Notes: generated from the letters alone by a model not told the origin. A DNA stretch of 54,271 bases from Patescibacteria group bacterium (GCA_013387205.1 WARV01000012.1:1-54271); one strand, 5' to 3'; shown: positions 24,071 to 53,227, counted from the first letter of the stretch. Numbers and translations are program-made.

Positions 24071-25117
24071 CTAATTAACATTAATCACTCCTCTATACAT
24101 CCCCATACTGCACATGAAAGATATCTCCCCTTTTTTGCTTGGTGCGGTAAAGACCACGTCTTCCTTGTCGCCTGGCCTGACAATTTTTTGGATCCCGAGT
24201 TTGGGTATAGTAAAAGCCTGAGCGCAGCTGTAACCGTTATTATTGACCAAATGCAAAGTAACCGTCGATCCCGCCTTAACGCTTAATTCTCTTGGCGTAT
24301 ATCCGTTGTTGTCTATGGTAATTGTAGCTTCGGAAACCGTAGCATTACCTCCTTTTTCCGCGGCAGCTGTCGTGCCGTTTGCCTGGCAATAAGCTACGGT
24401 ACAAAAAGTATTTTTTGCAAGCTTGTTTATAGTAAAACTGCTGCCGGTTAAAGCCACAGCATTGTTTAAATTAAATAAGGCCAGTAAAATAATTGCAAAC
24501 GCCGCAATTTTCATGAATCTGCTCTGCCAAAAATCTCCAAGTTTTGAAGCAAAGTATCCCAGTGCAAAAAACAAAGGGGTGGTTCCTAAAATAAACGCAA
24601 ACATTATGGCAGCACCGGCTACGGGACTGCCGGTGCCGACAGCCAAAGCCATCATGGCCTGCGTGGTGCCGCAAGGGATGAACACGGTAAAAGCCCCTAA
24701 AATTGCCGGAGCGAAAACATCTTTGCTTTTTGACTGGCTCCTAATTTTCCTGGTTAAAAATTTTGGCGGCTGGATAATGAAATAACGGAAGAAAGGATGA
24801 ATGTCCAACAAAGCCAGAGCGGTTCCCGCCATGAAAATTGCCACCAAAACCTGCAAAACCACCTGGGCTGTTAAAGACAGCTGAAACAATGAACCAAACC
24901 AGCCCAAAGCCAATCCCAATAAAGTGTAAGCAAAAAGTTTTGCGCCCAAAAAAATAAATATAGGAAAAGCGTGGCCAGCTTTGGCTTTATCTTTTAAATG
25001 TTCCTCTTCCCGCTGCGCCAAAGTCGCGGCCAGAAGCCCGCCCTGTACAGCCAGGCAAGTCAATCCGCCGGTAATTAACCCTGTTAAAAAAATTGCAACT
25101 AAATTTGCGCTATTCAT
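24071..25117 (-). CDS. TauE/SafE (UreH-like) membrane protein fused to a C-terminal cupredoxin-like domain
   Basis: GLITGGLTCLAVQGG N-terminus; C-terminal TITIDNNGYTPRELSVKAGSTVTLHLVNN...ISFMCSMGMYRGVINV. Confidence 0.85.
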   Translation of the reverse strand: MNSANLVAIFLTGLITGGLTCLAVQGGLLAATLAQREEEHLKDKAKAGHAFPIFIFLGAKLFAYTLLGLALGWFGSLFQLSLTAQVVLQVLVAIFMAGTALALLDIHPFFRYFIIQPPKFLTRKIRSQSKSKDVFAPAILGAFTVFIPCGTTQAMMALAVGTGSPVAGAAIMFAFILGTTPLFFALGYFASKLGDFWQSRFMKIAAFAIILLALFNLNNAVALTGSSFTINKLAKNTFCTVAYCQANGTTAAAEKGGNATVSEATITIDNNGYTPRELSVKAGSTVTLHLVNNNGYSCAQAFTIPKLGIQKIVRPGDKEDVVFTAPSKKGEISFMCSMGMYRGVINVN

Positions 25118-25174
25118 ATATTTTTAATTATACCAAATTATTTTTTGATTTTTTGCAAAACAACAAATTTCCGC

Positions 25175-27415
25175 TTAATCTGCAATATTAATTTTTGCCT
25201 TGCGCAGCCTTAAGGAGTTTAAAACTACTGAGATGGAACTTAAGGCCATGGCTAAGGATGCAAAAATCGGATTCAACAAAACATGGAAGAACGGATACAA
25301 AACACCCATGGCAACCGGAATTAAAATTATATTATAACCAAACGCCCAAAATAAATTTTGCTTTATGGCGCGCATGGTTTTTTTAGATAAACGGATAGAG
25401 GCGGCAACACTGGACAAATCTTTGTTGACCAAAGTAATATCCGCGGATTCCATGGCTATATCAGTCCCGCTGCCCATGGCAATTCCAACGTCGGATGCGG
25501 CCAAAGCCGGCGCGTCATTAATACCATCCCCCACCATAGCTGCAATTTTCCCTTCTGCCTGAATCTTCCTGACTTCCGCTTCTTTTTGGCCAGGCAATAC
25601 TTCTGCCAAAACTTTTTCAATCCCTAAACTTTGTGCAACCGCCTTGGCAGTGCGGATATTGTCGCCTGTAATCATGGCAGTTTGAAGCCTCATCGCCTTA
25701 AGTGTTGAAATGGCGTCCCTGGCACTGTCCTTAATAACATCCGCTACGGCGATAATGCCTGCCACCTTGCCGTTTAAGGCTAAAATCATTACTGTCTTTC
25801 CTTGATTTTCCAACAATTCGATTTGCGGTTCAATTGCGGCAATATCGATTTTATCCTGAAGCATCAGCCTGCGGTTGCCCAAAGTCACGCGCTTGCGGTT
25901 TAAAACTCCTTCTACCCCGTGTCCGGGAATTGAACGGAAATTTTCCATACTTTGCAGTTTGATATTTTCCGTATGCGCCATATTCACCACGCTCTCGGCC
26001 AAAGAATGCTCGGAACCGACTTCTAAAGAAGCGGAGATTATTAATATATCCCTGGTGGTCATGTTGCCGAAAGGCAGAATGTCCGTAACTTCGGGCTTGC
26101 CTTTGGTCAGCGTGCCGGTCTTGTCAAAAATAATCGAATCAATTTTATGCGCGGTTTCCAGGCTTTCCGCGTCTTTAATTAAAATGCCGTGTTCCGCGCC
26201 TTTGCCGGTTCCCACCATAATTGCTGTTGGAGTCGCCAGTCCCATGGCGCAAGGACAAGCGACAATCAAGACCGTCACGGCACTGAGCAAAGCAAACGGC
26301 AAATTCGGCTGCGGCCCGAAATCGTACCACAACACAAAAGTCGCCACAGACAGCATAATTACAATTGGCACGAAATATGATGAAATTTTATCCGCAATCC
26401 TCTGGATTGGCGCTTTGCTGCCTTGAGCCTGCTGCACTAATTTAACTATTTGCGCCAGCATGGTATCCTGCCCGACTTTGGTAGCCTGCATTAAAAAACT
26501 CCCGGTCTTATTTATGGTCGCGCCCACTATGATATCTTTTACCTGCTTATTTACCGGCATGCTTTCGCCTGTAACCATAGATTCGTCAACCAAGGAAGAA
26601 CCTTCGGTAACCACACCGTCCACGGGGATTTTTTCTCCTGGCCGCACACGCAAAATATCACCCAACTTAACTTCCATTATCGGTACATCAATTTCCTTTC
26701 CGCCAATCACCTTGCGCGCTGTTTTGGCCTGGAGCCCGACTAATTTCTTTATTGCTTCTCCGGTACCTGCTTTGGCTTTAGCTTCAAAATACCGGCCTAA
26801 TAAAATTAGACCGATAATGATGGTGGAAACGTCAAAATACGGCATTGGCTCAATGCCTAGACTTTTTACGACGCTTGGCCAAACTGTAATAAATACCGAA
26901 TAGGCAAAAGCCGTGGTCGTACCTAAGGCGACCAAGGTATCCATGTTAGCTGTACGGTGTTTTATAGATTTAACAGCTGCCGCGTAAAATTGCCAGCCGG
27001 CCCAAAACTGGACAGCGCCCGCCAAAACCAATTGCGTCCAATAGCTTTTAAGCAATTCCGGTGCGGTTTCCGAAACGGCCGGAAAACTTCCCCACAAAAT
27101 GAGGCCGCCCAAAACTAAACTTACGATTACTAAACCCTTGAGTTTCTTAAGTTCTTTTCTTTTTTCTTGCTGGATGGCTTCCTCGGATTTTTCCGCAGCA
27201 ATAAATTCAGCGCTATAACCAACCCGGCTAACTGCCTCTGACAATTGGCTTTCGTTTACCTGGCCTGGATCGTACGAAACCGTGGCCTGCTCCGTGGCTA
27301 AATTAACTCCCGCCAAAAAAACCCCGGGCACTTTTTTTAAAGACCTTTCAAGCACAGACACGCACGATGCGCAGTGCATTCCTTTTATTGAAAATGTTTT
27401 TTTAGCTTCGGCCAT
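25175..27415 (-). CDS. copA: Copper-translocating P-type ATPase
   Basis: GMHCASC HMA domain, [30 protein letters not shown]. Confidence 0.95.
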
Positions 27416-41617: not shown

Positions 41618-42280
41618 ATGAAAATTTTATTAGTTGAAGACGACGAATCAATAGCCAGCGTTATAAAAGCCGGTTTGCAGACCGAGCTTTTTGCTGTAGA
41701 TGTGGCTGACAACGGCGAAGAGGGTTCTTTGCTGGCACGGACTAACGATTACGATCTGGTTATTTTAGATGTCACTCTGCCGAGGAAGAGCGGGTCAGAT
41801 GTCTTGGCTGATATTCGAAATAAAGGAAAGACTGCACCCATTTTGGTACTGTCCGTAGAATCCGAAACAGATTTGAAAGTCAAGATGCTTGATGGTGGGG
41901 CAGATGACTATTTGAACAAACCTTTTTCGTTTAAGGAGCTCATGGCCAGAATTAGGGCCTTACTCCGCCGTCCCAAGAGGATCGAAGCCGAAGTACTTGC
42001 TGTTGATGACTTAAAACTTAATACGAAAACCCATGTAGTAACTAGGGATGGCAAAGATATCCGTTTGACCAGGAAAGAATTTATGCTGCTGGAATTGCTT
42101 ATGCACAATCACGGCGATGTAGTATCCCGGGGCATGATTGATGAGCATGTCTGGGATAACGAGGCTGACCCATTTTCCAAAACTATAGAATCCCATATTT
42201 TAAGCCTTCGCCGGAAGATAAACGAGAATGGGAAAAAGAAGCTGATAGAGACTTTATCGGGAAGGGGCTATAAAATATAG
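41618..42280 (+). CDS. OmpR/PhoB-family response regulator
   Basis: MKILLVEDDESIASVI...DLVILDVTLP...KPFSFKELMARIRALLRR; winged-helix RKEFMLLELLMHNHGDVVSRGMIDEHVWDN...VRDGK/IETLSGRGYKI. Confidence 0.93.
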   Translation: MKILLVEDDESIASVIKAGLQTELFAVDVADNGEEGSLLARTNDYDLVILDVTLPRKSGSDVLADIRNKGKTAPILVLSVESETDLKVKMLDGGADDYLNKPFSFKELMARIRALLRRPKRIEAEVLAVDDLKLNTKTHVVTRDGKDIRLTRKEFMLLELLMHNHGDVVSRGMIDEHVWDNEADPFSKTIESHILSLRRKINENGKKKLIETLSGRGYKI

Positions 42281-44336: not shown

Positions 44337-45074
44337 TCACAAGACAGTGAAGGTGTAGGTGTTTGAAACTGCGCCGTTACCTATTACTTCTTGGATACTC
44401 CACGTTCCGGCCGTCCCAAAAGTAATGGTCAGATTGTACTGTGTTGGGGCTTGCCCCCAAATTTGACTACCAGTGAGAATGGCATAGCCGCCACCAGGGA
44501 AATTTACGCGCACTGCCGTCACCGTTCCTTGGGTGGGCCCATACACTGTAAGAGTGATAGGGCTCGAAGAGTGACTGGGAGTGGCAGGGTAAATATTGTT
44601 GATGTAAGGTGATCCAGGGTACAGGTTGGGGTATATGTAGCCTCGGTCAAAGAAGGTCGCCGAATGGTATACGCCAGTCTGTGTGTAGTTGGAGCCGCAA
44701 TTCTGTTCAGTGACGAGGACTGAGCCGTCGTTGTTCACCTGTGTTACATACGCTACGTGACCGTATGTGCCGTAACTACTCACCCCAATAGTGCCTACCG
44801 AGGGAATATTCGTTACAACTTGGAGTCCGCTAGCACGGGCACTGTTTGCCCAGTTGTTCGCGTTACCCCAGTTGGTGGCAGGATAGCCCCAAAGGTCGTG
44901 CATCATCTGCCACGCCTTCCAGGTACAATTGCCGCCAGGGTATGGCGGGTTGCAACAGGCGTAAATGTTGCCGGGTGATGATTCACCGCCGCAAGTATCG
45001 GCAGCCTTCACTTGATCTGCATAAAAGCAGAGCATAAATACGAACATCACCAAAGTCGTCAGTGACTTCTTCAC
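44337..45074 (-). CDS. Secreted CHAP-domain amidase/peptidase
   Basis: GGNCTWKAWQMM Cys and YGTYGHVAYVTQVN His; SD GGAGG 5 nt before GTG at 45074 (in-frame upstream GTG at 45143 also possible). Confidence 0.85.
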   Translation of the reverse strand: MKKSLTTLVMFVFMLCFYADQVKAADTCGGESSPGNIYACCNPPYPGGNCTWKAWQMMHDLWGYPATNWGNANNWANSARASGLQVVTNIPSVGTIGVSSYGTYGHVAYVTQVNNDGSVLVTEQNCGSNYTQTGVYHSATFFDRGYIYPNLYPGSPYINNIYPATPSHSSSPITLTVYGPTQGTVTAVRVNFPGGGYAILTGSQIWGQAPTQYNLTITFGTAGTWSIQEVIGNGAVSNTYTFTVL

Positions 45075-45140
45075 GTTTTCCTCCAATTGGAATTTTTGGC
45101 GAATCATTTTCAGGATCCGTCGTTTATGCGCAAGCGAGCG

Positions 45141-45205
45141 CACAAGGGAAGTATAACTTCGCGGTGGTAAAATAAAATCAAATAAAAAGTAAAATTTTGG
45201 TAAAA
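45141..45205 (-). promoter_or_regulatory. Module A promoter: four-heptamer array + TATACT -10
   Basis: + strand GGTAAAA-TAAA-ATCAAAT-AAAA-AGTAAAA-TTTT-GGTAAAA (45166-45205); -10 AGTATA (45150-45155), 10-nt gap. Confidence 0.85.
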
Positions 45206-45303
45206 TTGTGGATAAATAATATAATAAAAATGCAGAGAGACCTCTTTGTTGTAAGAGGTCTCTTTTTTGTTTGTGGAAATTATTTTTTTATCAAAAAAAT
45301 TTT

Positions 45304-45966
45304 TTAATTGGTACCGGACACGGCTTTAAAGCCGTTCAAAAATTTATTATAGTAATCCCGCGCCTCTTTCGTGCTGGTATCGTTTAAGTCAATACGCAGT
45401 AGATAACCCTGAGTCACAAAATAAATGTCTTCTGCGGCATACACTCCGGGAGTTGGTCGGCTTGTAATTTTAACGCATTGAATGTTATTGATTTCACAAT
45501 TTGGTTTACTCGGGAGAGGGTCAGTATTTTCAGACGGCGTATAGTGCTTTTTTACTTCGGTCAATAAATCGTAGTTGGCTGACAGCTTGTCGTTGGCAGT
45601 AAGATTGATACGGCCATCTAATTCTATTCTCGGCCACCCGATCCAGTCGTTAGTGGTTGTGGAGTTTCGGCCGGTATCAGACGATAATACTATCATTCTG
45701 GACGTTTCAAAGTCTTGCCTCATATAATTCATGTCCTCAAACGGCTTAAATTCGTAACCGCTTTGGTCGTCTCTGTACGTCACATTAGCTTTTAATGTGT
45801 CTTGAGCCGCCAACTGTTCAGGGGTAACTACGTTACCGGTTTGAGCAGAAGGCGGAGTTGAAGTTTTATTATGGTTACCGGCTTGTTTGTTGTATAGATA
45901 CACCTCTCCCAAGATGATAAGCGCTATAATTATACCTAAAAGAATTTTTTTTGATGATTTGTTCAT
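45304..45966 (-). CDS. Secreted/membrane-anchored hypothetical protein
   Basis: N-terminal TM then Ser/Thr linker and soluble domain. Confidence 0.65.
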   Translation of the reverse strand: MNKSSKKILLGIIIALIILGEVYLYNKQAGNHNKTSTPPSAQTGNVVTPEQLAAQDTLKANVTYRDDQSGYEFKPFEDMNYMRQDFETSRMIVLSSDTGRNSTTTNDWIGWPRIELDGRINLTANDKLSANYDLLTEVKKHYTPSENTDPLPSKPNCEINNIQCVKITSRPTPGVYAAEDIYFVTQGYLLRIDLNDTSTKEARDYYNKFLNGFKAVSGTN

Positions 45967-46364
45967 AAGAAGATTAAATTAGCTTTGTTAAATAAGATTC
46001 CGGAACTGGCAATAGTATATCATGCCAGTCCCGGGCCGGTCTATGAGCTCATCGCTCAGTTAACCGTGAAGTAAAACAGGCTGGAAAACACGCCATTCTT
46101 AAATTATGCCGCATCCCTGAACGAATAGGGTTTACCCAAAAAAAGCCGGCTTGGTTTATTCTACTTCGGAATTATCCGATCGAGAGATTTTGATGCAGAT
46201 TATGTTTTCCTGCGTGCGGTAGATAATCTTCTTCCTTGCTGGAAAAGTAGAACGAGAATACCATGCTAATCAGACCGAAGAATTGTTCTCTGGAGCTTCC
46301 CTACACCTAAGCTTGGTCCTTTTATTCTTTTGTAGAATTTCTTCCGCCATAAAAATAAATAGGT

Positions 46365-46432
46365 AAGCAAAAGTACAGGGCTACAACTTCAGCTGAGTTG
46401 AGGAGCGAAATTGTAGCCCTGTACTTTTGCTT
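46365..46432. other. 22-bp perfect inverted repeat with 24-nt loop
   Basis: aagcaaaagtacagggctacaa ... ttgtagccctgtacttttgctt. Confidence 0.85.
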
Positions 46433-46563
46433 CTCAAAAAAACGCCGCCTTGCTGTTAACTTTCGATTTACATATATTATTACATTGTGAATTTGTTACA
46501 GCAAGGGTTTTGTGTCCTTTTTCCTATATTGTATTGATTTAATGATAGACAATAATTTTTTTA

Positions 46564-47136
46564 CTATTTAAATTTTACTGAAGAAAGTATTGTGTTAAAA
46601 ACATTATCAATTTGTTGTTGCTCTACTGTTGTATTGCCTATATTTTTACTATTATTGGAAAAGTTAAATACTAAGTTATTGGCAAAGGTGATCCGAGAAT
46701 TCTGATAGACCGGTGGGGTAACCCCTTCAATCACGTACGTGACCTTTCCATCTATACGGACGGTTTCCTTTTTTATGAGATTGCGTACACTTTCGTTTGT
46801 TATATAGTTATTAACATTGCCACTATAGGTATCGTGACGGTATGTAAAAATAATTGGAGCAATTATTGATCCTTCAGCCATGTACTGTTTTTGTTTATTA
46901 CTAAAGGACAAGGTGGTTGTAGTGTCTTTTTGGCTGGCTTCAACTTTCCAGTCTTTAGGATACCTGAATTCCAGTGCTCCATTGCTAAATTTTTCCCAGT
47001 TCGTGGTGTCGAGCTTGGCCTGGAATGTCGTTTCGTTTGATGTTTGCGAGCTGTCTGGTTGGGCTGGCTGTTGGTTAAAGGTACATCCTGCAGCTATTAG
47101 GGATATAACACTAAGGCTGAATAGTATTTTTTTCAT
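46564..47136 (-). CDS. Lipoprotein with PsbP-like domain
   Basis: Lipobox SLIAAGCTF; WEKFSNGALEFRYPKDWKVEA. Confidence 0.7.
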   Translation of the reverse strand: MKKILFSLSVISLIAAGCTFNQQPAQPDSSQTSNETTFQAKLDTTNWEKFSNGALEFRYPKDWKVEASQKDTTTTLSFSNKQKQYMAEGSIIAPIIFTYRHDTYSGNVNNYITNESVRNLIKKETVRIDGKVTYVIEGVTPPVYQNSRITFANNLVFNFSNNSKNIGNTTVEQQQIDNVFNTILSSVKFK

Positions 47137-47240
47137 AGAATTAATTTGAACGTTTATTAGTATTTAGTATATAGTTTACCATGATGAGTTAAGTGTGGGA
47201 ACCCCTGCGTTTTTAGACGTAAGGGTTCCTAGTTGAACTG

Positions 47241-48305
47241 CTATTCCGTGACCGTGGACCCTACTGGATAGGAGTAGTAATCCGAGACACCGGCGATATT
47301 GCAAAACTGGTATGCCAGGTTGAGAAAGGCTTGGCCGGTGAAAGGCCGCCGCGTTCCATTGTCAGTGACAATAGACACCTCCGCCCCTCCCCATTGCTGG
47401 ATCAGCCTGCCGTCTGGTTGACTCCTGCCATTGCCAGTAAGGGCATCAATGACGTCGGCTCCGCGTGGGTATCTGTCCATCTCGGCTTGGGATATAATCA
47501 CGACATCTCTGAAGTCAAACCCTCGACCTGGTCCGTACAACTCCCAGAGCCTCTGCGGGCTGGAGATCATCCTCTTTTGGCCGTTCTGGAGGACGTAAAT
47601 AGCAGGGTTGCCATAGACCTGAACAATGGAACCATTGGGATGCAGGGGTAGGTTACCGTAGGGACGATACCTTTCCGCTGTCCCATTAGTACATTTTGGT
47701 GTGTTAGAAGTAATCCAACCCGTGGGATCTGTAAGACCGTTGGTACTCGGCCAAGAGTCATTTGGCATCGCCCCTAAGTTGTTGGAAGGAGGAGTGGTGT
47801 TTGGAACGATTCCGAAGTGGAGGTGATTTCCATTGCTCCAGTAACCGACTCTACCTATCTCAACTCCGCCCGTTACTCGGTCCCCAGCAACCAAGTTGGT
47901 GGTTATGTGCCCATAAAGTGCCAAGAACTCACTGCCGTTGCTTAGCGTATGCTTGATGAGAAGTCCCACATTACCTGTACCCCAATTGTTTGGACTTACG
48001 CTGTAGACCGTGCCGGGAGCTATCGCGTAAACGGGATTATTGAGACCATACATCATATCGTAGCCGATATGATAGTATTCGGGGAGATAGCATCCACCGT
48101 TAGCTGGATCCCGTCCGAGCCAAGTTCCGCAGGTGTAAGGGAAACTGCTCATCCCAGTGGGGTAAAAGAACCCTGTGCCGGTTTGGATAAAGGTCACTTC
48201 TTCTGCTCGAAGCAGATCAACACCGCTTCCAAACAGAAGAAAGAAAGCTGCCATAAACATGACGACGAAACCAACCTGGTGGTTAGTCCTAGAATAGAGT
48301 AACAC
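47241..48305 (-). CDS. Secreted M23-family peptidase with C-terminal surface repeats
   Basis: YHIGYDMMYG...VYAIAPGTVYSV...LYGHI...NHLHFGI; GTG start with GGAGG SD; C-terminal GNPAIYVLQNGQKR repeat. Confidence 0.85.
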   Translation of the reverse strand: MLLYSRTNHQVGFVVMFMAAFFLLFGSGVDLLRAEEVTFIQTGTGFFYPTGMSSFPYTCGTWLGRDPANGGCYLPEYYHIGYDMMYGLNNPVYAIAPGTVYSVSPNNWGTGNVGLLIKHTLSNGSEFLALYGHITTNLVAGDRVTGGVEIGRVGYWSNGNHLHFGIVPNTTPPSNNLGAMPNDSWPSTNGLTDPTGWITSNTPKCTNGTAERYRPYGNLPLHPNGSIVQVYGNPAIYVLQNGQKRMISSPQRLWELYGPGRGFDFRDVVIISQAEMDRYPRGADVIDALTGNGRSQPDGRLIQQWGGAEVSIVTDNGTRRPFTGQAFLNLAYQFCNIAGVSDYYSYPVGSTVTE

Positions 48306-48325
48306 TTTTTATCCTCCTGTGGATT

Positions 48326-48373
48326 TTAGCGAATCATTGTTAGGACTCGCTGTTTGTGCGCAAGTGAGCGCAC
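48326..48373 (-). CDS. Candidate leaderless 15-aa leader peptide upstream of M23 peptidase
   Basis: GTG 6 nt after TATACT; VRSLAHKQRVLTMIR*; near-identical peptide at module A. Confidence 0.5.
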   Translation of the reverse strand: MRSLAHKQRVLTMIR

Positions 48374-48435
48374 AAAAAAAGTATAACCTTGCAGTAGTAA
48401 GATAAAATCAAAGAAAAGATAAAATTTTGGTAAAA
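48373..48435 (-). promoter_or_regulatory. Module B promoter
   Basis: AGTAAGA-TAAA-ATCAAAG-AAAA-GATAAAA-TTTT-GGTAAAA (48396-48435); AGTATA 48380-48385, 10-nt gap. Confidence 0.85.
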
Positions 48436-48604
48436 TTGTGGATAAGGTACATAATAAAATGCACGGGGGTTCTTAGTTGGAAGAGGTATCTTGGTTGTCT
48501 AGCCATGTTAAAATTATGTCGCATCCCCATTGTTTACCACAAAAGAAGCCGGTTCTTCAAGACGCAAATCCTAAAAAGGACGCGCTTTCCGAACCGGCTA
48601 TGGA

Positions 48605-49036
48605 TTATTCTTGGCCCAACAATCTGCGGATTTTATCAAGAAGACGGCTGGAGGTGAACGGCTTACACAGAAAGTCGTGAACCCCGGCTTTAAGAGGGTC
48701 TTCGTTGGTAAAACCCGAAATACAAAGCACTTTTAGGCCAGGCTGGCGCTGCAAAAGCAGTTTTGCCAACTCTATTCCGCTCATGCCTGACATTTGGACA
48801 TCTGTCAGCAGAAGGGAAATCAGTTCTCCGCTGCTGTCGTATTTCATCAATGCCTCTTGGCCGCTTGAAGCTTCAATAACCTGATAACCCTTGGAAAGAA
48901 GCATTGAGCTAACCACTTTCCGGATACTGGCTTCGTCGTCTACCAGCAAGATAATTACGTTTTTTTGCTTTGGCTCAGTATTATTTGAGTCTAAAACCCG
49001 ACAACCTGCTTTTGGCGCATCGAATTGTGCGGCCAT
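48605..49036 (-). CDS. Receiver-domain-only response regulator
   Basis: VIILLVDDEASIRKVVSSMLLSKGYQV...LLTDVQMSGMSGIELAKLL...FLCKPFTSSRLLDKIRRLL; SD AAAGGAGGAG. Confidence 0.92.
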   Translation of the reverse strand: MAAQFDAPKAGCRVLDSNNTEPKQKNVIILLVDDEASIRKVVSSMLLSKGYQVIEASSGQEALMKYDSSGELISLLLTDVQMSGMSGIELAKLLLQRQPGLKVLCISGFTNEDPLKAGVHDFLCKPFTSSRLLDKIRRLLGQE

Positions 49037-49105
49037 TTATTTCTCCTCCTTTGAATTTTGTCGGGCCGTTGTCAGGTTCCGACGTTTACGCGCTCGCTTG
49101 CGCAC
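49037..49105 (-). CDS. Candidate leaderless 22-aa leader peptide upstream of receiver gene
   Basis: GTG 6 nt after TATACT; VRKRARKRRNLTTARQNSKEEK*; stop abuts the ATG. Confidence 0.45.
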   Translation of the reverse strand: MRKRARKRRNLTTARQNSKEEK

Positions 49106-49167
49106 AAGGAAAGTATAACCTTACAATGGTAAAATAAAATCAAAGAAAAAGTAAAATTTTGGTAAAA
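49105..49167 (-). promoter_or_regulatory. Module C promoter
   Basis: GGTAAAA-TAAA-ATCAAAG-AAAA-AGTAAAA-TTTT-GGTAAAA (49128-49167); AGTATA 49112-49117, 10-nt gap. Confidence 0.85.
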
Positions 49168-49250
49168 TATATTAAAATAGCCCGGCCACGAAAATCTGTG
49201 GCCGGGGTTTTGCGTAAGGCAAGTTCTCATCTTACGGCTTTGTTGCACTC

Positions 49251-49367
49251 TTAGTCTGTATCGAAAAAAGCCCAATGGCGCTGGCGTCCATGCTGCAACG
49301 GAAGACGCCGGTGCAGCTTAAACAAACCTCTCAACCTTCGGCAGATTGAAAGCAATAACGCTCTCAT
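49251..49367 (-). CDS. Candidate 38-aa highly cationic peptide
   Basis: SD AAAGGAGG then ATG; MRALLLSICRRLRGLFKLHRRLPLQHGRQRHWAFFDTD*; followed by CCCGGCCAC...GTGGCCGGG hairpin. Confidence 0.5.
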   Translation of the reverse strand: MRALLLSICRRLRGLFKLHRRLPLQHGRQRHWAFFDTD

Positions 49368-49398
49368 TCTTGGTCCTCCTTTCGTATTATGTTGTCAA

Positions 49399-51348
49399 TC
49401 AGTAGTTCTTTAAAAAATCCTGCATTTTGCGGCTTTCATCCAATGCTTGCCTGGCAGCAGCTTCTGGTTTGACCAGTAAGCCTAACAAGACATCCGGTTT
49501 TTCTATAATTGATATTCGGGACAAAGATTGCCGTGCGGATTTAACGTGCTGGAGAATTTTTTTGGCTATATTTGGGATGATTTTATTCCAAAACAATTTT
49601 TGCAGTTTTTGTTCATCGCGTTTGAGGTCTACGGCCTTTTTGTAAAAAATACCCAGAACTTCCGCGCCAACGTAATTGATTCTGCCTGCACGCAAATCCT
49701 CCAGCCAATCATGTGCGTCATCGTTCAATTGGCGGGCAATGAGATAATGCGTGAAAAAACTTTTAAGATTTTTTGCTTCTATTGAGCCGGCAGGATATCC
49801 AATCAACATCAAAATAGTAAGCGGACCCAAGGCGTGCCCCAAACTTTTGTCTGCCAGCTGCTGTAAATTTTTAAAATCAGGGAGATTTTTGGGAACCGAC
49901 AGCTTGCCGTCCATAATTTGAACGCTGCAGTTTTTGCTCTCCCAAGCATTGGCCGCGTCAATATTATTCAAAATACCATTAACTAAGCTGTAATTATTAT
50001 TACGGCCGAACAGCCCTGTATAACAAGCGGTGACTTCCCGCAGACCAATATTAGCCACAGGCAAAAAATCAATATTACCCTCGCCATCAAAAAAGTCATC
50101 ATAAATAGTGTAAGCAATCCAGCCAAAAAGATTTGCCGTCCCCAAATCAATCACCCGCCTGTCCGTGATTCGTTTTCCTCTATCCCCCAAGCTTTCCCTG
50201 AACCAAAAAGGCAAAAGCCCGATTTGCCGGTCAATATCCTTTTCCGTTGTTTTATCCAAAGCCATAAGCGCATAATCTTTTACTTCCGGCGGTAAAGAGG
50301 AAAGTCTTGTATTTGCCTGATTGACAATGCTTTGGTATATTTTTTCATCCTGGGCACGGGAATTGTTACCAGGCTGCTTTGCAGGTTTATCGAGCAGCGG
50401 CAGATATTTCACCAGAGCTTCAAGACAGAAAGCCGTGGTTACACTGCCGGTTCCGGCAAAGCGTTTTTTCCCATTTTCTTCCGGAGCCAAATAAAAGGCA
50501 TTAGCAGGCCAACCTTTGCCATCGAAATTTTGCAAAAGATAATCTATGCTTTTCTCCAGTTCTTGCGGATTTTGGCAATCCAGATTGATTAAGGCGGAGA
50601 CGCTGAGCGCCGTGTCCAATGGATTGCCCCAGGAAAAATCTGGCTGTCTTTTTGAAACCAGGTATTCTGCTAGCTTTTCTTTGTAGCTTCCCTGATAAGA
50701 CCGCGAGATGAAATATGCTATGGGAATAGCTGAATAATATAAGGAGGCAAATTTTTTTGCTTTTATCGCTTGGTCAAAAAATGTGAGTATTTTGGGCAAC
50801 CGCACTTTTTGCATTGAAAGGAAATACGCCACATTGGCATTTACGGCCAAGTCGACATCCTGCCAAACTTTTGGCGCTCTCCTATCTACCAACCAGGTAT
50901 TATAAGGTCCGCCCGGTTCTATTTCCGTGTTTGCCAGCAGTTTAACAATGTGGGCCAAAACTTCTCCGTTGATGGTGTTGGAATTATAGCCGGCCAAAGC
51001 CGTTAATGCACAAAAGGTATCATCCAAATCATCCGGGTATGGAGTTAATCCGGCCTCCTGGGATTTTCTCTGCCAATAGTTAAAAGACCATTGTTGGCTT
51101 TTTTGCGATAACAAAAATCGGACAGCTTTCTGTCTTACCTTATCCGCCTTGGCTGAACGGGGCAAAGAATTTAAGCAATGTAAAATATTGGAAGTAAAAA
51201 AGGGCGTACGGTGAATTCTTGCTTTTTTAAAGTCATCTTGGCGGCCAGAATCCAAACCCAAAAAACTGCCGTCCGATTGCTGTTCCCTAGCCAAAAAATG
51301 GACGCCTTGACTTAAAATTTTGCGGATTTTTCCAGGAATTGTATTCAT
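49399..51348 (-). CDS. Terpenoid cyclase-like fusion: class II-like alpha-toroid (DxDD) plus class I-like domain (DDxxD)
   Basis: TPYPDDLDDTFCALTAL (DLDD at about 51019-51030), IYDDFFDGEGN, RQLNDDAHDWLEDLRAGR; ATG at 51348 overlaps kinase stop as ATGA. Confidence 0.7.
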   Translation of the reverse strand: MNTIPGKIRKILSQGVHFLAREQQSDGSFLGLDSGRQDDFKKARIHRTPFFTSNILHCLNSLPRSAKADKVRQKAVRFLLSQKSQQWSFNYWQRKSQEAGLTPYPDDLDDTFCALTALAGYNSNTINGEVLAHIVKLLANTEIEPGGPYNTWLVDRRAPKVWQDVDLAVNANVAYFLSMQKVRLPKILTFFDQAIKAKKFASLYYSAIPIAYFISRSYQGSYKEKLAEYLVSKRQPDFSWGNPLDTALSVSALINLDCQNPQELEKSIDYLLQNFDGKGWPANAFYLAPEENGKKRFAGTGSVTTAFCLEALVKYLPLLDKPAKQPGNNSRAQDEKIYQSIVNQANTRLSSLPPEVKDYALMALDKTTEKDIDRQIGLLPFWFRESLGDRGKRITDRRVIDLGTANLFGWIAYTIYDDFFDGEGNIDFLPVANIGLREVTACYTGLFGRNNNYSLVNGILNNIDAANAWESKNCSVQIMDGKLSVPKNLPDFKNLQQLADKSLGHALGPLTILMLIGYPAGSIEAKNLKSFFTHYLIARQLNDDAHDWLEDLRAGRINYVGAEVLGIFYKKAVDLKRDEQKLQKLFWNKIIPNIAKKILQHVKSARQSLSRISIIEKPDVLLGLLVKPEAAARQALDESRKMQDFLKNY

Positions 51349-52787
51349 GCGGTGAACTCTACGGTAAACGTTGAACCTTGAACCGGCAGACTTTTTACGC
51401 AAATGTTCCCTCCGAAATCTTTTTCAACGATATTTTTTGTGGTGGAAAGCCCTATCCCAGTGCCTTTTTCTAAATTTTTGGTGGTGAAAAACGGGTCGAA
51501 TATTTTCTCCAAAATATCAGGCGCAATCCCGCAGCCCCAATCCTGTACTTCCAGCCTGACTATATGGTGATTCTCGGCAAGCCGTATTTCCACTGCCCTT
51601 TTCCCGTTATCTTGCGCGGGCATATCGTCATAAGCATCTATGGCATTGGCTACTAAATTAGACAGCATCTGATGGAATTTTACGGGACTGCCGAAAGCCT
51701 GCACTTCGTGCTGCCTGACAAAATTTAATTCCACGTTAGCCTTGCGAGCCTTAAAATCTAACAGTTGCATTACTTGGTGGATTTCCTCATTCAAAGAAAA
51801 AGAGATTTTGGTTTCCTGATGGGACAGCTGTTTGCGTATGGCTCGGATGAAATTTTCCATCCGCCTTGCCGCGGCAATGCTGCCGTCCAAATAACTTTGG
51901 GCTTCTTCCAAATTCTGTCCTTTAATTTCTGCCAGTTTTCTTACGCTGATGGACACGGCAGTCAAAGGATTAATCAGGTCATGGAAAAGCCCGGAGGACA
52001 ACCGCCCGAACTCCGCGAACCGGTATAGCTGCGACATTTTTTCTACCTGCATTCTCTTTAATTCCCGCGTTCGCTCTTCAACTTTTACTTCCAGCAAATC
52101 CCGTTCCCGCTTTAACTCCGCCTCTGACCTCCGCGCCCGGTGCAGAGATTTTTCTATTTCGCGATTAGAGAGCCATGCAATAGTAACAACCAAAATATAA
52201 GTTATGCAAAATACGATGCCGTCGTTCATCCTGAATTGATAGCTGCTCCAGTAAACCTTGTGGGAGCTTAAATCGTTTAATTGTAAATAGGAAAGTGAAA
52301 TTACGGTAATAATGGTTATTGCGGTTATTAAAAAACTGAACCTTGTATTAATTAAGATACTGCTCATTATAATGATAACTGCATAACTTAAAATCATTTC
52401 AGGAAGAAAGACGCCCCAATAATAAGACCCGCTCGTAACAGCAGCGAAGTAAATGGCTAATAGTATAAAAGATGCCCAAATGAATTTACCTTTTTTAGAC
52501 AAAAAATAAAGGAATACAAAAACGCCCAAAATCAGAATGGGCGAAGTGGCTCCAAAACCTCCGAAGTCAGGGTGGTGAAAAATCCTATAAAAATTATTTA
52601 AGTTGACAATAATCAATAGAATTATTACGGCAAAAAGAATTATATTTAAAATAAGTTCTCTGCGTTTTTTATCCTCCTGGACAGATTTAGCTTTAATGAA
52701 TTTTTCAAATAAAAAATGAGCACTTCGATAAATGAAAGTGCTGCTGAAATGCCGGCATTTTTTTAGTAATTCTGCGCGCGTGCCCAT
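51345..52787 (-). CDS. Membrane sensor histidine kinase
   Basis: Six hydrophobic segments, coiled coil, GRLSSGLFHDLINPLTAVS, HATPase N/G boxes (LVANAIDAYDD, DWGCGIAP, GTGIGLS). Confidence 0.93.
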   Translation of the reverse strand: MGTRAELLKKCRHFSSTFIYRSAHFLFEKFIKAKSVQEDKKRRELILNIILFAVIILLIIVNLNNFYRIFHHPDFGGFGATSPILILGVFVFLYFLSKKGKFIWASFILLAIYFAAVTSGSYYWGVFLPEMILSYAVIIIMSSILINTRFSFLITAITIITVISLSYLQLNDLSSHKVYWSSYQFRMNDGIVFCITYILVVTIAWLSNREIEKSLHRARRSEAELKRERDLLEVKVEERTRELKRMQVEKMSQLYRFAEFGRLSSGLFHDLINPLTAVSISVRKLAEIKGQNLEEAQSYLDGSIAAARRMENFIRAIRKQLSHQETKISFSLNEEIHQVMQLLDFKARKANVELNFVRQHEVQAFGSPVKFHQMLSNLVANAIDAYDDMPAQDNGKRAVEIRLAENHHIVRLEVQDWGCGIAPDILEKIFDPFFTTKNLEKGTGIGLSTTKNIVEKDFGGNICVKSLPVQGSTFTVEFTA

Positions 52788-53041
52788 TTTTTTATCCACT
52801 ATGGTAGTGGCTCTGGCGACCAAGGAAGAAGGATATCTTGCGAAAGCGCAAGATTTTGCAACTTTTCCTGTTTTCGCGCAGCCTTATCAGTGAGCAGAGT
52901 CTGCAAAATATTTTCCATATTTTTACTTTCTGGTTTTTAATTTCGTTTTTGTTTCAGGCCCTCGACCTTAGACCCTTAGATCTTACCTACATTAATTGTA
53001 ATGGAAAATTTAAATAATATCAATTACCACGCAAGTTAAGG

Positions 53042-53163
53042 CTTTCGCGTTCCATGCCGTTCCGGCCGGAAGAGCCGGGAATCCGCGCGTTATCAGCAGG
53101 ATAACCCCGGTTCCCGCCCTCGCGAAAATGACAGAAAATCAAGTTTTTCGTAAAACGCGAAAG
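53042..53163 (-). ncRNA. Candidate structured 5' leader RNA of the kinase operon
   Basis: Closing 10-bp stem CTTTCGCGTT/AACGCGAAAG; internal CGGGAA..GTTATC-CTGCT-GATAAC..TTCCCG and TTCC-GGCC-GGAA hairpins; begins ~3 nt after predicted TSS. Confidence 0.5.
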
Positions 53164-53164
53164 T

Positions 53165-53227
53165 CCTCTAAAGTATAGTTTTGCAATGGTAAAATAAAAT
53201 CAAAGAAAAAGTAAAATTTTGGTAAAG
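53165..53227 (-). promoter_or_regulatory. Module D promoter
   Basis: GGTAAAA-TAAA-ATCAAAG-AAAA-AGTAAAA-TTTT-GGTAAAG (53188-53227); AGTATA 53172-53177, 10-nt gap. Confidence 0.85.

Follow-up and report, generated by a model that had tools for sequence, protein, structure and literature searches.

Four arrays of direct repeats in the genome of an ultra-small, uncultured member of Ca. Doudnabacteria (1.30 Mb, 98.3% complete) are, in the reading that we prefer and to which we assign a probability of roughly 0.6, PhoB-class promoters of one OmpR/PhoB-family response regulator and, judged from the sequence, the output of a candidate ComQXPA/PalQXP-like autoinducer circuit, in which a Trp-containing peptide would be prenylated by a ChrPC-like enzyme. 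The circuit most likely represents a previously undescribed cell-signalling system; a literature search returned nothing that joins the candidate phyla radiation, a histidine kinase and a peptide pheromone, and such a system was absent among the matches listed for Patescibacteria and quorum sensing. The features found in the 54,271-nucleotide stretch of DNA that was analyzed (the window) are listed in Table 1.

Table 1. Features of the candidate circuit in the window
Feature	Coordinates	Strand	Details
Array 1 + N10 + TATACT	45150..45205	minus	Candidate CHAP hydrolase promoter; array 45166-45205, TATACT 45150-45155; TTTTACC-N4-TTTTACT-N4-ATTTGAT-N4-TTTTACC
Array 2 + N10 + TATACT	48380..48435	minus	Candidate M23 peptidase promoter; array 48396-48435, TATACT 48380-48385; 11-bp period, TTTTACC-TTTTATC-CTTTGAT-TCTTACT
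Array 3 + N10 + TATACT	49112..49167	minus	Candidate promoter of the receiver-only protein; array 49128-49167, TATACT 49112-49117; TTTTACC-TTTTACT-CTTTGAT-TTTTACC
Array 4 + N10 + TATACT	53172..53227	minus	Candidate distal promoter of the peptide-kinase-enzyme operon; array 53188-53227, TATACT 53172-53177; CTTTACC-TTTTACT-CTTTGAT-TTTTACC
OmpR/PhoB-family response regulator	41618..42280	plus	Candidate activator
Secreted CHAP hydrolase	44337..45074	minus	Under array 1; GTG 45074 after GGAGG
Secreted M23 peptidase	47241..48305	minus	Under array 2; signal peptide recognized by inspection
Receiver-only protein, 143 aa	48605..49036	minus	Under array 3
Two-domain enzyme, 667-aa ORF	49399..51348	minus	Class II terpene-cyclase-like + trans-isoprenyl-diphosphate-synthase-like
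Histidine kinase, 6 TM (by inspection) + HisKA/HATPase	51345..52787	minus	Start ATG 52787 likelier than TTG 52823
Unannotated 39-aa ORF, candidate precursor peptide	52799..52918	minus	MENILQTLLTDKAARKQEKLQNLALSQDILLPWSPEPLP; Trp33
Sigma70-like promoter TTGATA-N17-TACAAT	52995..53023	minus	Consensus match only; candidate basal promoter directly 5' of the peptide gene

An earlier sequence-only reading had reported four minus-strand arrays with an 11-bp period placed 10 nt before TATACT, and positions, period and gap all proved exact at the 4 sites. The arrays, described there as identical, are nearly so, with 7-mer variants at sites 1, 2 and 4 and a mean identity of 91% across array, spacer and -10 (66-column alignment). 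The reported lack of a -35 element also holds, as no TTGACA-like hexamer can be read 16-18 nt upstream of TATACT. The full 56-nt pattern, allowing up to 3 mismatches, matched 3 times in the window against 0.00 expected (100 shuffles); site 2 has 4 differences from this pattern and was found with a looser one only. Across the whole genome, the 40-nt array pattern (up to 3 mismatches) matched sites 1, 3 and 4 only, and a scan with a profile of all four sites, proposed earlier as a check, gave 65-70 bits at these sites and less than 15 bits elsewhere. Neither pattern nor profile search found another good array copy in the 1.30-Mb genome. Looser-pattern matches elsewhere (G070, G005:C8, G111 and G000:C11) look like chance.

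The leaders of sites 1-3 can be aligned (80% identity), and the upstream flanks share extra sequence between sites 1/2 and between sites 3/4, so that partial common ancestry by duplication is likely and the four sites may not count as four independent observations. It is nevertheless very improbable that the arrays are nothing but recent duplicates of one AT-rich promoter segment, devoid of specific regulator binding. Such an origin would account for the alignable leaders, the common flanks and the confinement of all four arrays to 8 kb, but the arrays are more conserved than the leaders, and other genera show the architecture with a different sequence and a specific enrichment of period 11 (see below). 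The leaders of sites 1-3 (45080-45148, 48305-48378 and 49036-49110) open with a hairpin, GTGCGC-loop-GCGCAY; the hairpin-loop segment of site 3 is the reverse complement of that of site 1 (TCGCTT/AAGCGA), and a second possible hairpin follows. The sole Rfam match in the window was a tRNA; hence, the leaders are not explained by any known riboswitch. A long, near-perfect intergenic inverted repeat at 46360-46440 (AAAAGTACAGGGCTACAA...TTGTAGCCCTGTACTTTT) could be a terminator or a miniature mobile element.

The regulator matches the receiver domain PF00072 (92.7 bits) and the OmpR-type DNA-binding domain PF00486 (83.6 bits), both above cut-off, and is the only PF00486 protein of the genome. Its orthologues in genomes G010, G009 and G020 are 83%, 84% and 79% identical, respectively, and share an identical recognition helix, SKTIESHILSLR; those genomes carry the same type of 7-mer. 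The protein thus keeps the place of candidate activator that it had been given. The proposed kinship to WalR did not survive, since the regulator scored 128.8 bits against a YycF/WalR equivalog cut-off of 340 and the 7-mers of the window, TTTTACC/CTTTGAT, do not fit TGTWAH-N5-TGTWAH. What resembles WalR/YycF is the OmpR-type regulator family, the CHAP and M23 hydrolase targets and the TGTTAWC unit of a more distant genome (G002), which is similar to the WalR motif; the linked kinase, by contrast, is a 6-TM NtrB-like protein rather than WalK. In the E. coli pstS pho-box, the -35 element gives way to 7-mer direct repeats with an 11-bp period, placed some 10 nt 5' of the -10. The arrays in the window share this 11-bp arrangement of 7-mers, the gap of about 10 nt, the replaced -35 and a PhoB-family regulator, but differ in the 7-mer itself and in lacking linkage to phosphate genes, and the regulator is not a PhoB equivalog (TIGR02154; 175.8 bits versus a cut-off of 296.2). 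Spacing in PhoB/pho-box promoters is known to be strict (PMC10294691). The OmpR/PhoB-class geometry noted earlier, with direct repeats at an 11-bp period adjoining the core promoter, recurs in related genera; together with the presence of a single OmpR-type protein and recurrence at orthologous loci, it makes the assignment of the arrays as putative OmpR/PhoB-class operators well supported.

A search of 117 genomes with the pattern of four repeats, N10 and -10 recovered the orthologous kinase operon of G010 and the spacer between regulator and recombinase genes in G010 and G009, with 1 control match; G020 has a weaker array in the same spacer. Upstream of the G010 kinase operon, the array reads TTTTGAT-TTTTACC-CTTTGAC-TTTTACC-N10-TATTAT, and between the regulator and tyrosine recombinase genes of G009 and G010, units of the YTTTACC/CTTTGAC type precede N10 and TATAAT. 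These units show that CTTTGAT in the window truly belongs to the repeats and that the unit approximates YTTTRMY. In three related genomes, the array promoter beside the regulator gene faces the recombinase (L046:11052-11107, L047:2082-2137 and L048:2902-2957), which has a Cys-rich C-terminal segment and is absent from the window genome.

In more distant loci, the sequence profile (R1) misses the arrays, which are found by period- or 7-mer-based scores alone. When a 7-mer matrix trained on G000, G009, G010 and G020 only was applied to ten more distant, held-out loci, the best site of the whole locus lay 80-100 nt upstream of the peptide or kinase start in L083, L087, L088 and L089; the trained matrix alone was weak in a second set of loci. 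TTGTAAG-N4-TTGTAAG-N10-TATGAT was recognized by eye in L139. A motif-free test of three repeats in 20 loci gave a Fisher chi2 of 96-121 for period 11 and of 64-86 for periods 9, 10, 12 and 13 (expectation, 40); it singled out the period only and did not separate N10 from neighboring distances. In G002 (L089), TGTTAWC units with the same N10 are found between the regulator and kinase genes and upstream of a pilin-like gene, and G001 contains a three-repeat relic in the absence of a detectable PF00486 protein. No convincing array was seen in L082, L086, L091, L134, L137 or L140-L142. Taken together, the sequences suggest that the 11-bp repeat geometry is conserved across patescibacterial operons and that the 7-mers drift with the regulator. 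Several arrays were seen beside other genes: the four-repeat TGTTAWC array of L089:4840 (minus strand; G002:C79, ~7148), with N10-TATACT, precedes a type IV pilin-like gene (N_methyl); the G001 array, TTTTACC-TTTTACC-CTTTAAT (L017:1501-1533; G001:C26:21499), lies directly 5' of a RelE-like toxin gene and is either a relic or the product of an assembly gap; and CTTTACT-CTTTATT-CTTTATA-N10-TATTCT (L106:1501-1545; G194:C37) precedes an rpsF-like gene in the Magasanikbacteria genome that also contains L084.

The genes under the arrays had been taken for an envelope regulon. This fits the two secreted hydrolases (the alternative start of the CHAP ORF, 45143, is merely 7 nt from the -10) but not as a generic envelope stress response, and it leaves the array-4 operon unexplained. 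The kinase and cyclase-like genes of that operon had been recognized, and the 39-aa ORF had been overlooked. The products of this operon, namely a small peptide that ends in a Trp motif, the 6-TM kinase and the terpene-cyclase/prenyltransferase, point to peptide signalling rather than to envelope homeostasis. Kinase, regulator and enzyme genes are clustered across Patescibacteria, and peptide, kinase and enzyme genes are packed tightly into a single operon at almost every locus; viral contigs yielded distant kinases only.

The peptide ends in ...LLPWSPEPLP. Substitutions between its ORF and the G010 counterpart (MEKLLQALLTDKAARKPASAEKLALSQSVMEPWAEEPTM) favor the third codon position (16/10/26 at positions 1, 2 and 3). 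A small PW-ended ORF on the same strand, at most 500 nt upstream of the kinase, is present in 18 of 22 loci versus 10 of 1320 background windows (0.8% per window; p ~5e-35), and in 8 of the 10 loci retrieved with the enzyme profile alone; in L085 and L135, the ORF is Trp-ended and lacks the Pro. G002, which has no enzyme, also has no peptide. A loosened N-terminal peptide motif, defined post hoc, was too unspecific (32 matches versus 20.7 expected) and was therefore replaced by the PW-position test, which, with the loci found through the enzyme, is the fairer one. Seven peptides compared with the ComX family (PF05952) at E up to 5 gave no match, and sequences so short may escape such a comparison.

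The sequence-only reading had called the enzyme terpenoid-cyclase-like, which describes its N-terminal domain and misses the C-terminal one. In the AlphaFold prediction (pLDDT 87), residues 20-339 match drimenol synthase (Z 31.8) and squalene-hopene cyclases and keep PDDLDD (DLDD), and residues 342-651 adopt a trans-polyprenyl diphosphate synthase fold (Z 25.4 to polyprenyl synthase 4jyx) with the Asp-rich motifs DDFFD (DDxxD) and QLNDDAHDW (QxNDDxxDW). A survey of 379 Patescibacteria genomes turned up the family in 17, and DxDD is kept in 8 of 11 homologues. The similarity of the N-terminal domain to drimenol and squalene-hopene cyclases, its intact DxDD and the hairpin-like element with a GGTCGA loop in several operon leaders could suit a scheme in which the enzyme makes a free terpenoid that serves as signal, with the small ORF acting as leader peptide or attenuator. 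We regard this as improbable, since the amino acids at both ends of the peptide, and not a Trp codon run alone, are conserved across families, most peptides have a single Trp codon, presence of the ORF tracks the enzyme, and the peptides of L084 and L086 persist although their enzymes lack the DxDD part.

ChrPC-type prenyltransferase-cyclase fusions, the original description of which is reportedly that of Hubrich et al. (2024), are reviewed in PMC13290415. Known Trp prenyltransferases of peptides with a trans-IDS-like fold include ComQ, PalQ and the P domain of ChrPC; ChrPC, which acts on the Trp of a RiPP, joins prenylation to a cyclase domain (PMC13290415). The enzyme of the window is likened to ChrPC by domain make-up, as both unite trans-IDS-like and class II cyclase domains in one protein; unlike in ChrPC, its cyclase-like domain is N-terminal and the enzyme is tied to a kinase-regulator pair. 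As in Bacillus ComQXPA, an isoprenyl-synthase-fold enzyme, a short precursor with a near-C-terminal Trp, a membrane kinase and a response regulator share one locus. However, the host is a patescibacterium rather than a member of the Firmicutes, outside which a 2014 census found no ComQXPA-like loci (PMC4008528), the gene order differs, and the enzyme has an additional class II cyclase domain. Because the regulator is OmpR-type rather than LuxR/GerE-type like ComA and the precursor has no ComX match, we do not class the system as ComQXPA. PalQ of Paenibacillus alvei is found beside a kinase and a Trp-ended precursor, and PalP-PalX-PalQ, like the locus here, co-encodes a kinase, a Trp-ended precursor and a trans-IDS-like Trp prenyltransferase (PMC10853753). 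PalX differs from the 39-aa peptide in its NHLP leader and exact Trp end, a cyclase domain is lacking, and the system is not known to include an OmpR regulator or operator array.

In the autoinducer circuit that we favor, the array promoters would be activator-dependent: dimers of the phosphorylated regulator would line up head to tail on the four direct repeats, the last of which, 10 nt before TATACT, would substitute for the -35. The enzyme would recognize the 39-aa peptide through an N-terminal leader of the LLTDKAARK type and prenylate the near-C-terminal Trp, perhaps also cyclizing the chain, and the modified peptide would then be exported and trimmed; neither an exporter for the peptide nor a protease to process it was identified. 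The 6-TM kinase would sense the modified peptide and relay the signal by phosphotransfer to the regulator, with the CHAP and M23 murein hydrolases, the receiver-only protein and the peptide-kinase-enzyme operon as output. Array 4, located on the circuit's own operon, would provide positive feedback, the sigma70-like promoter could supply basal peptide expression, and the receiver-only protein might serve as a phosphate sink or side branch. More tentatively, and at somewhat less than even odds, Patescibacteria may signal from cell to cell with a pheromone, a terpene-cyclized Trp-peptide produced by a cyclase-prenyltransferase fusion and acting via the 6-TM kinase and the OmpR-family regulator with its co-evolving operator; in the present genome this system would drive murein hydrolases.

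The arrays could also be OmpR-family operators of a circuit that senses envelope or metabolite state, the peptide being incidental, for instance a modified antimicrobial or membrane-active RiPP. The link between regulator and arrays stands without the peptide, two murein hydrolases and the receiver-only protein are among the targets, and G002 retains regulator, kinase and arrays in the absence of enzyme and peptide. We nonetheless consider this alternative unlikely, because the tight peptide-kinase-enzyme operon has the comQXPA/palPXQ layout, in which ComX is a kinase ligand and PalX is encoded beside a kinase.

Signalling in Patescibacteria is very poorly understood. A cassette that unites peptide, kinase, regulator and enzyme in a self-contained form, and whose operator can be read, would supply concrete components for testing: the 39-aa substrate, a two-domain, putatively prenylating enzyme of a new kind, and a defined regulon with secreted murein hydrolases, of possible relevance to the action of these small and often epibiotic cells on their neighbors. 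If the proposal is true, Trp-prenyl-peptide signalling would extend beyond Firmicutes and be coupled to another regulator family.

Three further observations concern the surroundings of the kinase operons. The window encodes DsbD/cupredoxin and copper P-type ATPase proteins at 24071-27415, and a similar gene pair (L046:878-6069) lies directly upstream of the G010 kinase operon. The leader that separates array 4 from the peptide gene contains a GC-rich, strongly palindromic segment (53020-53165, minus strand), possibly a REP-like insertion. Finally, the peptide-operon leaders of the window (52950-52985, minus strand), L046, L084, L086, L091 and others have GGTCGA within or close to the loop of a small hairpin at their predicted 5' ends, and this feature, absent from Rfam, may be an RNA element.
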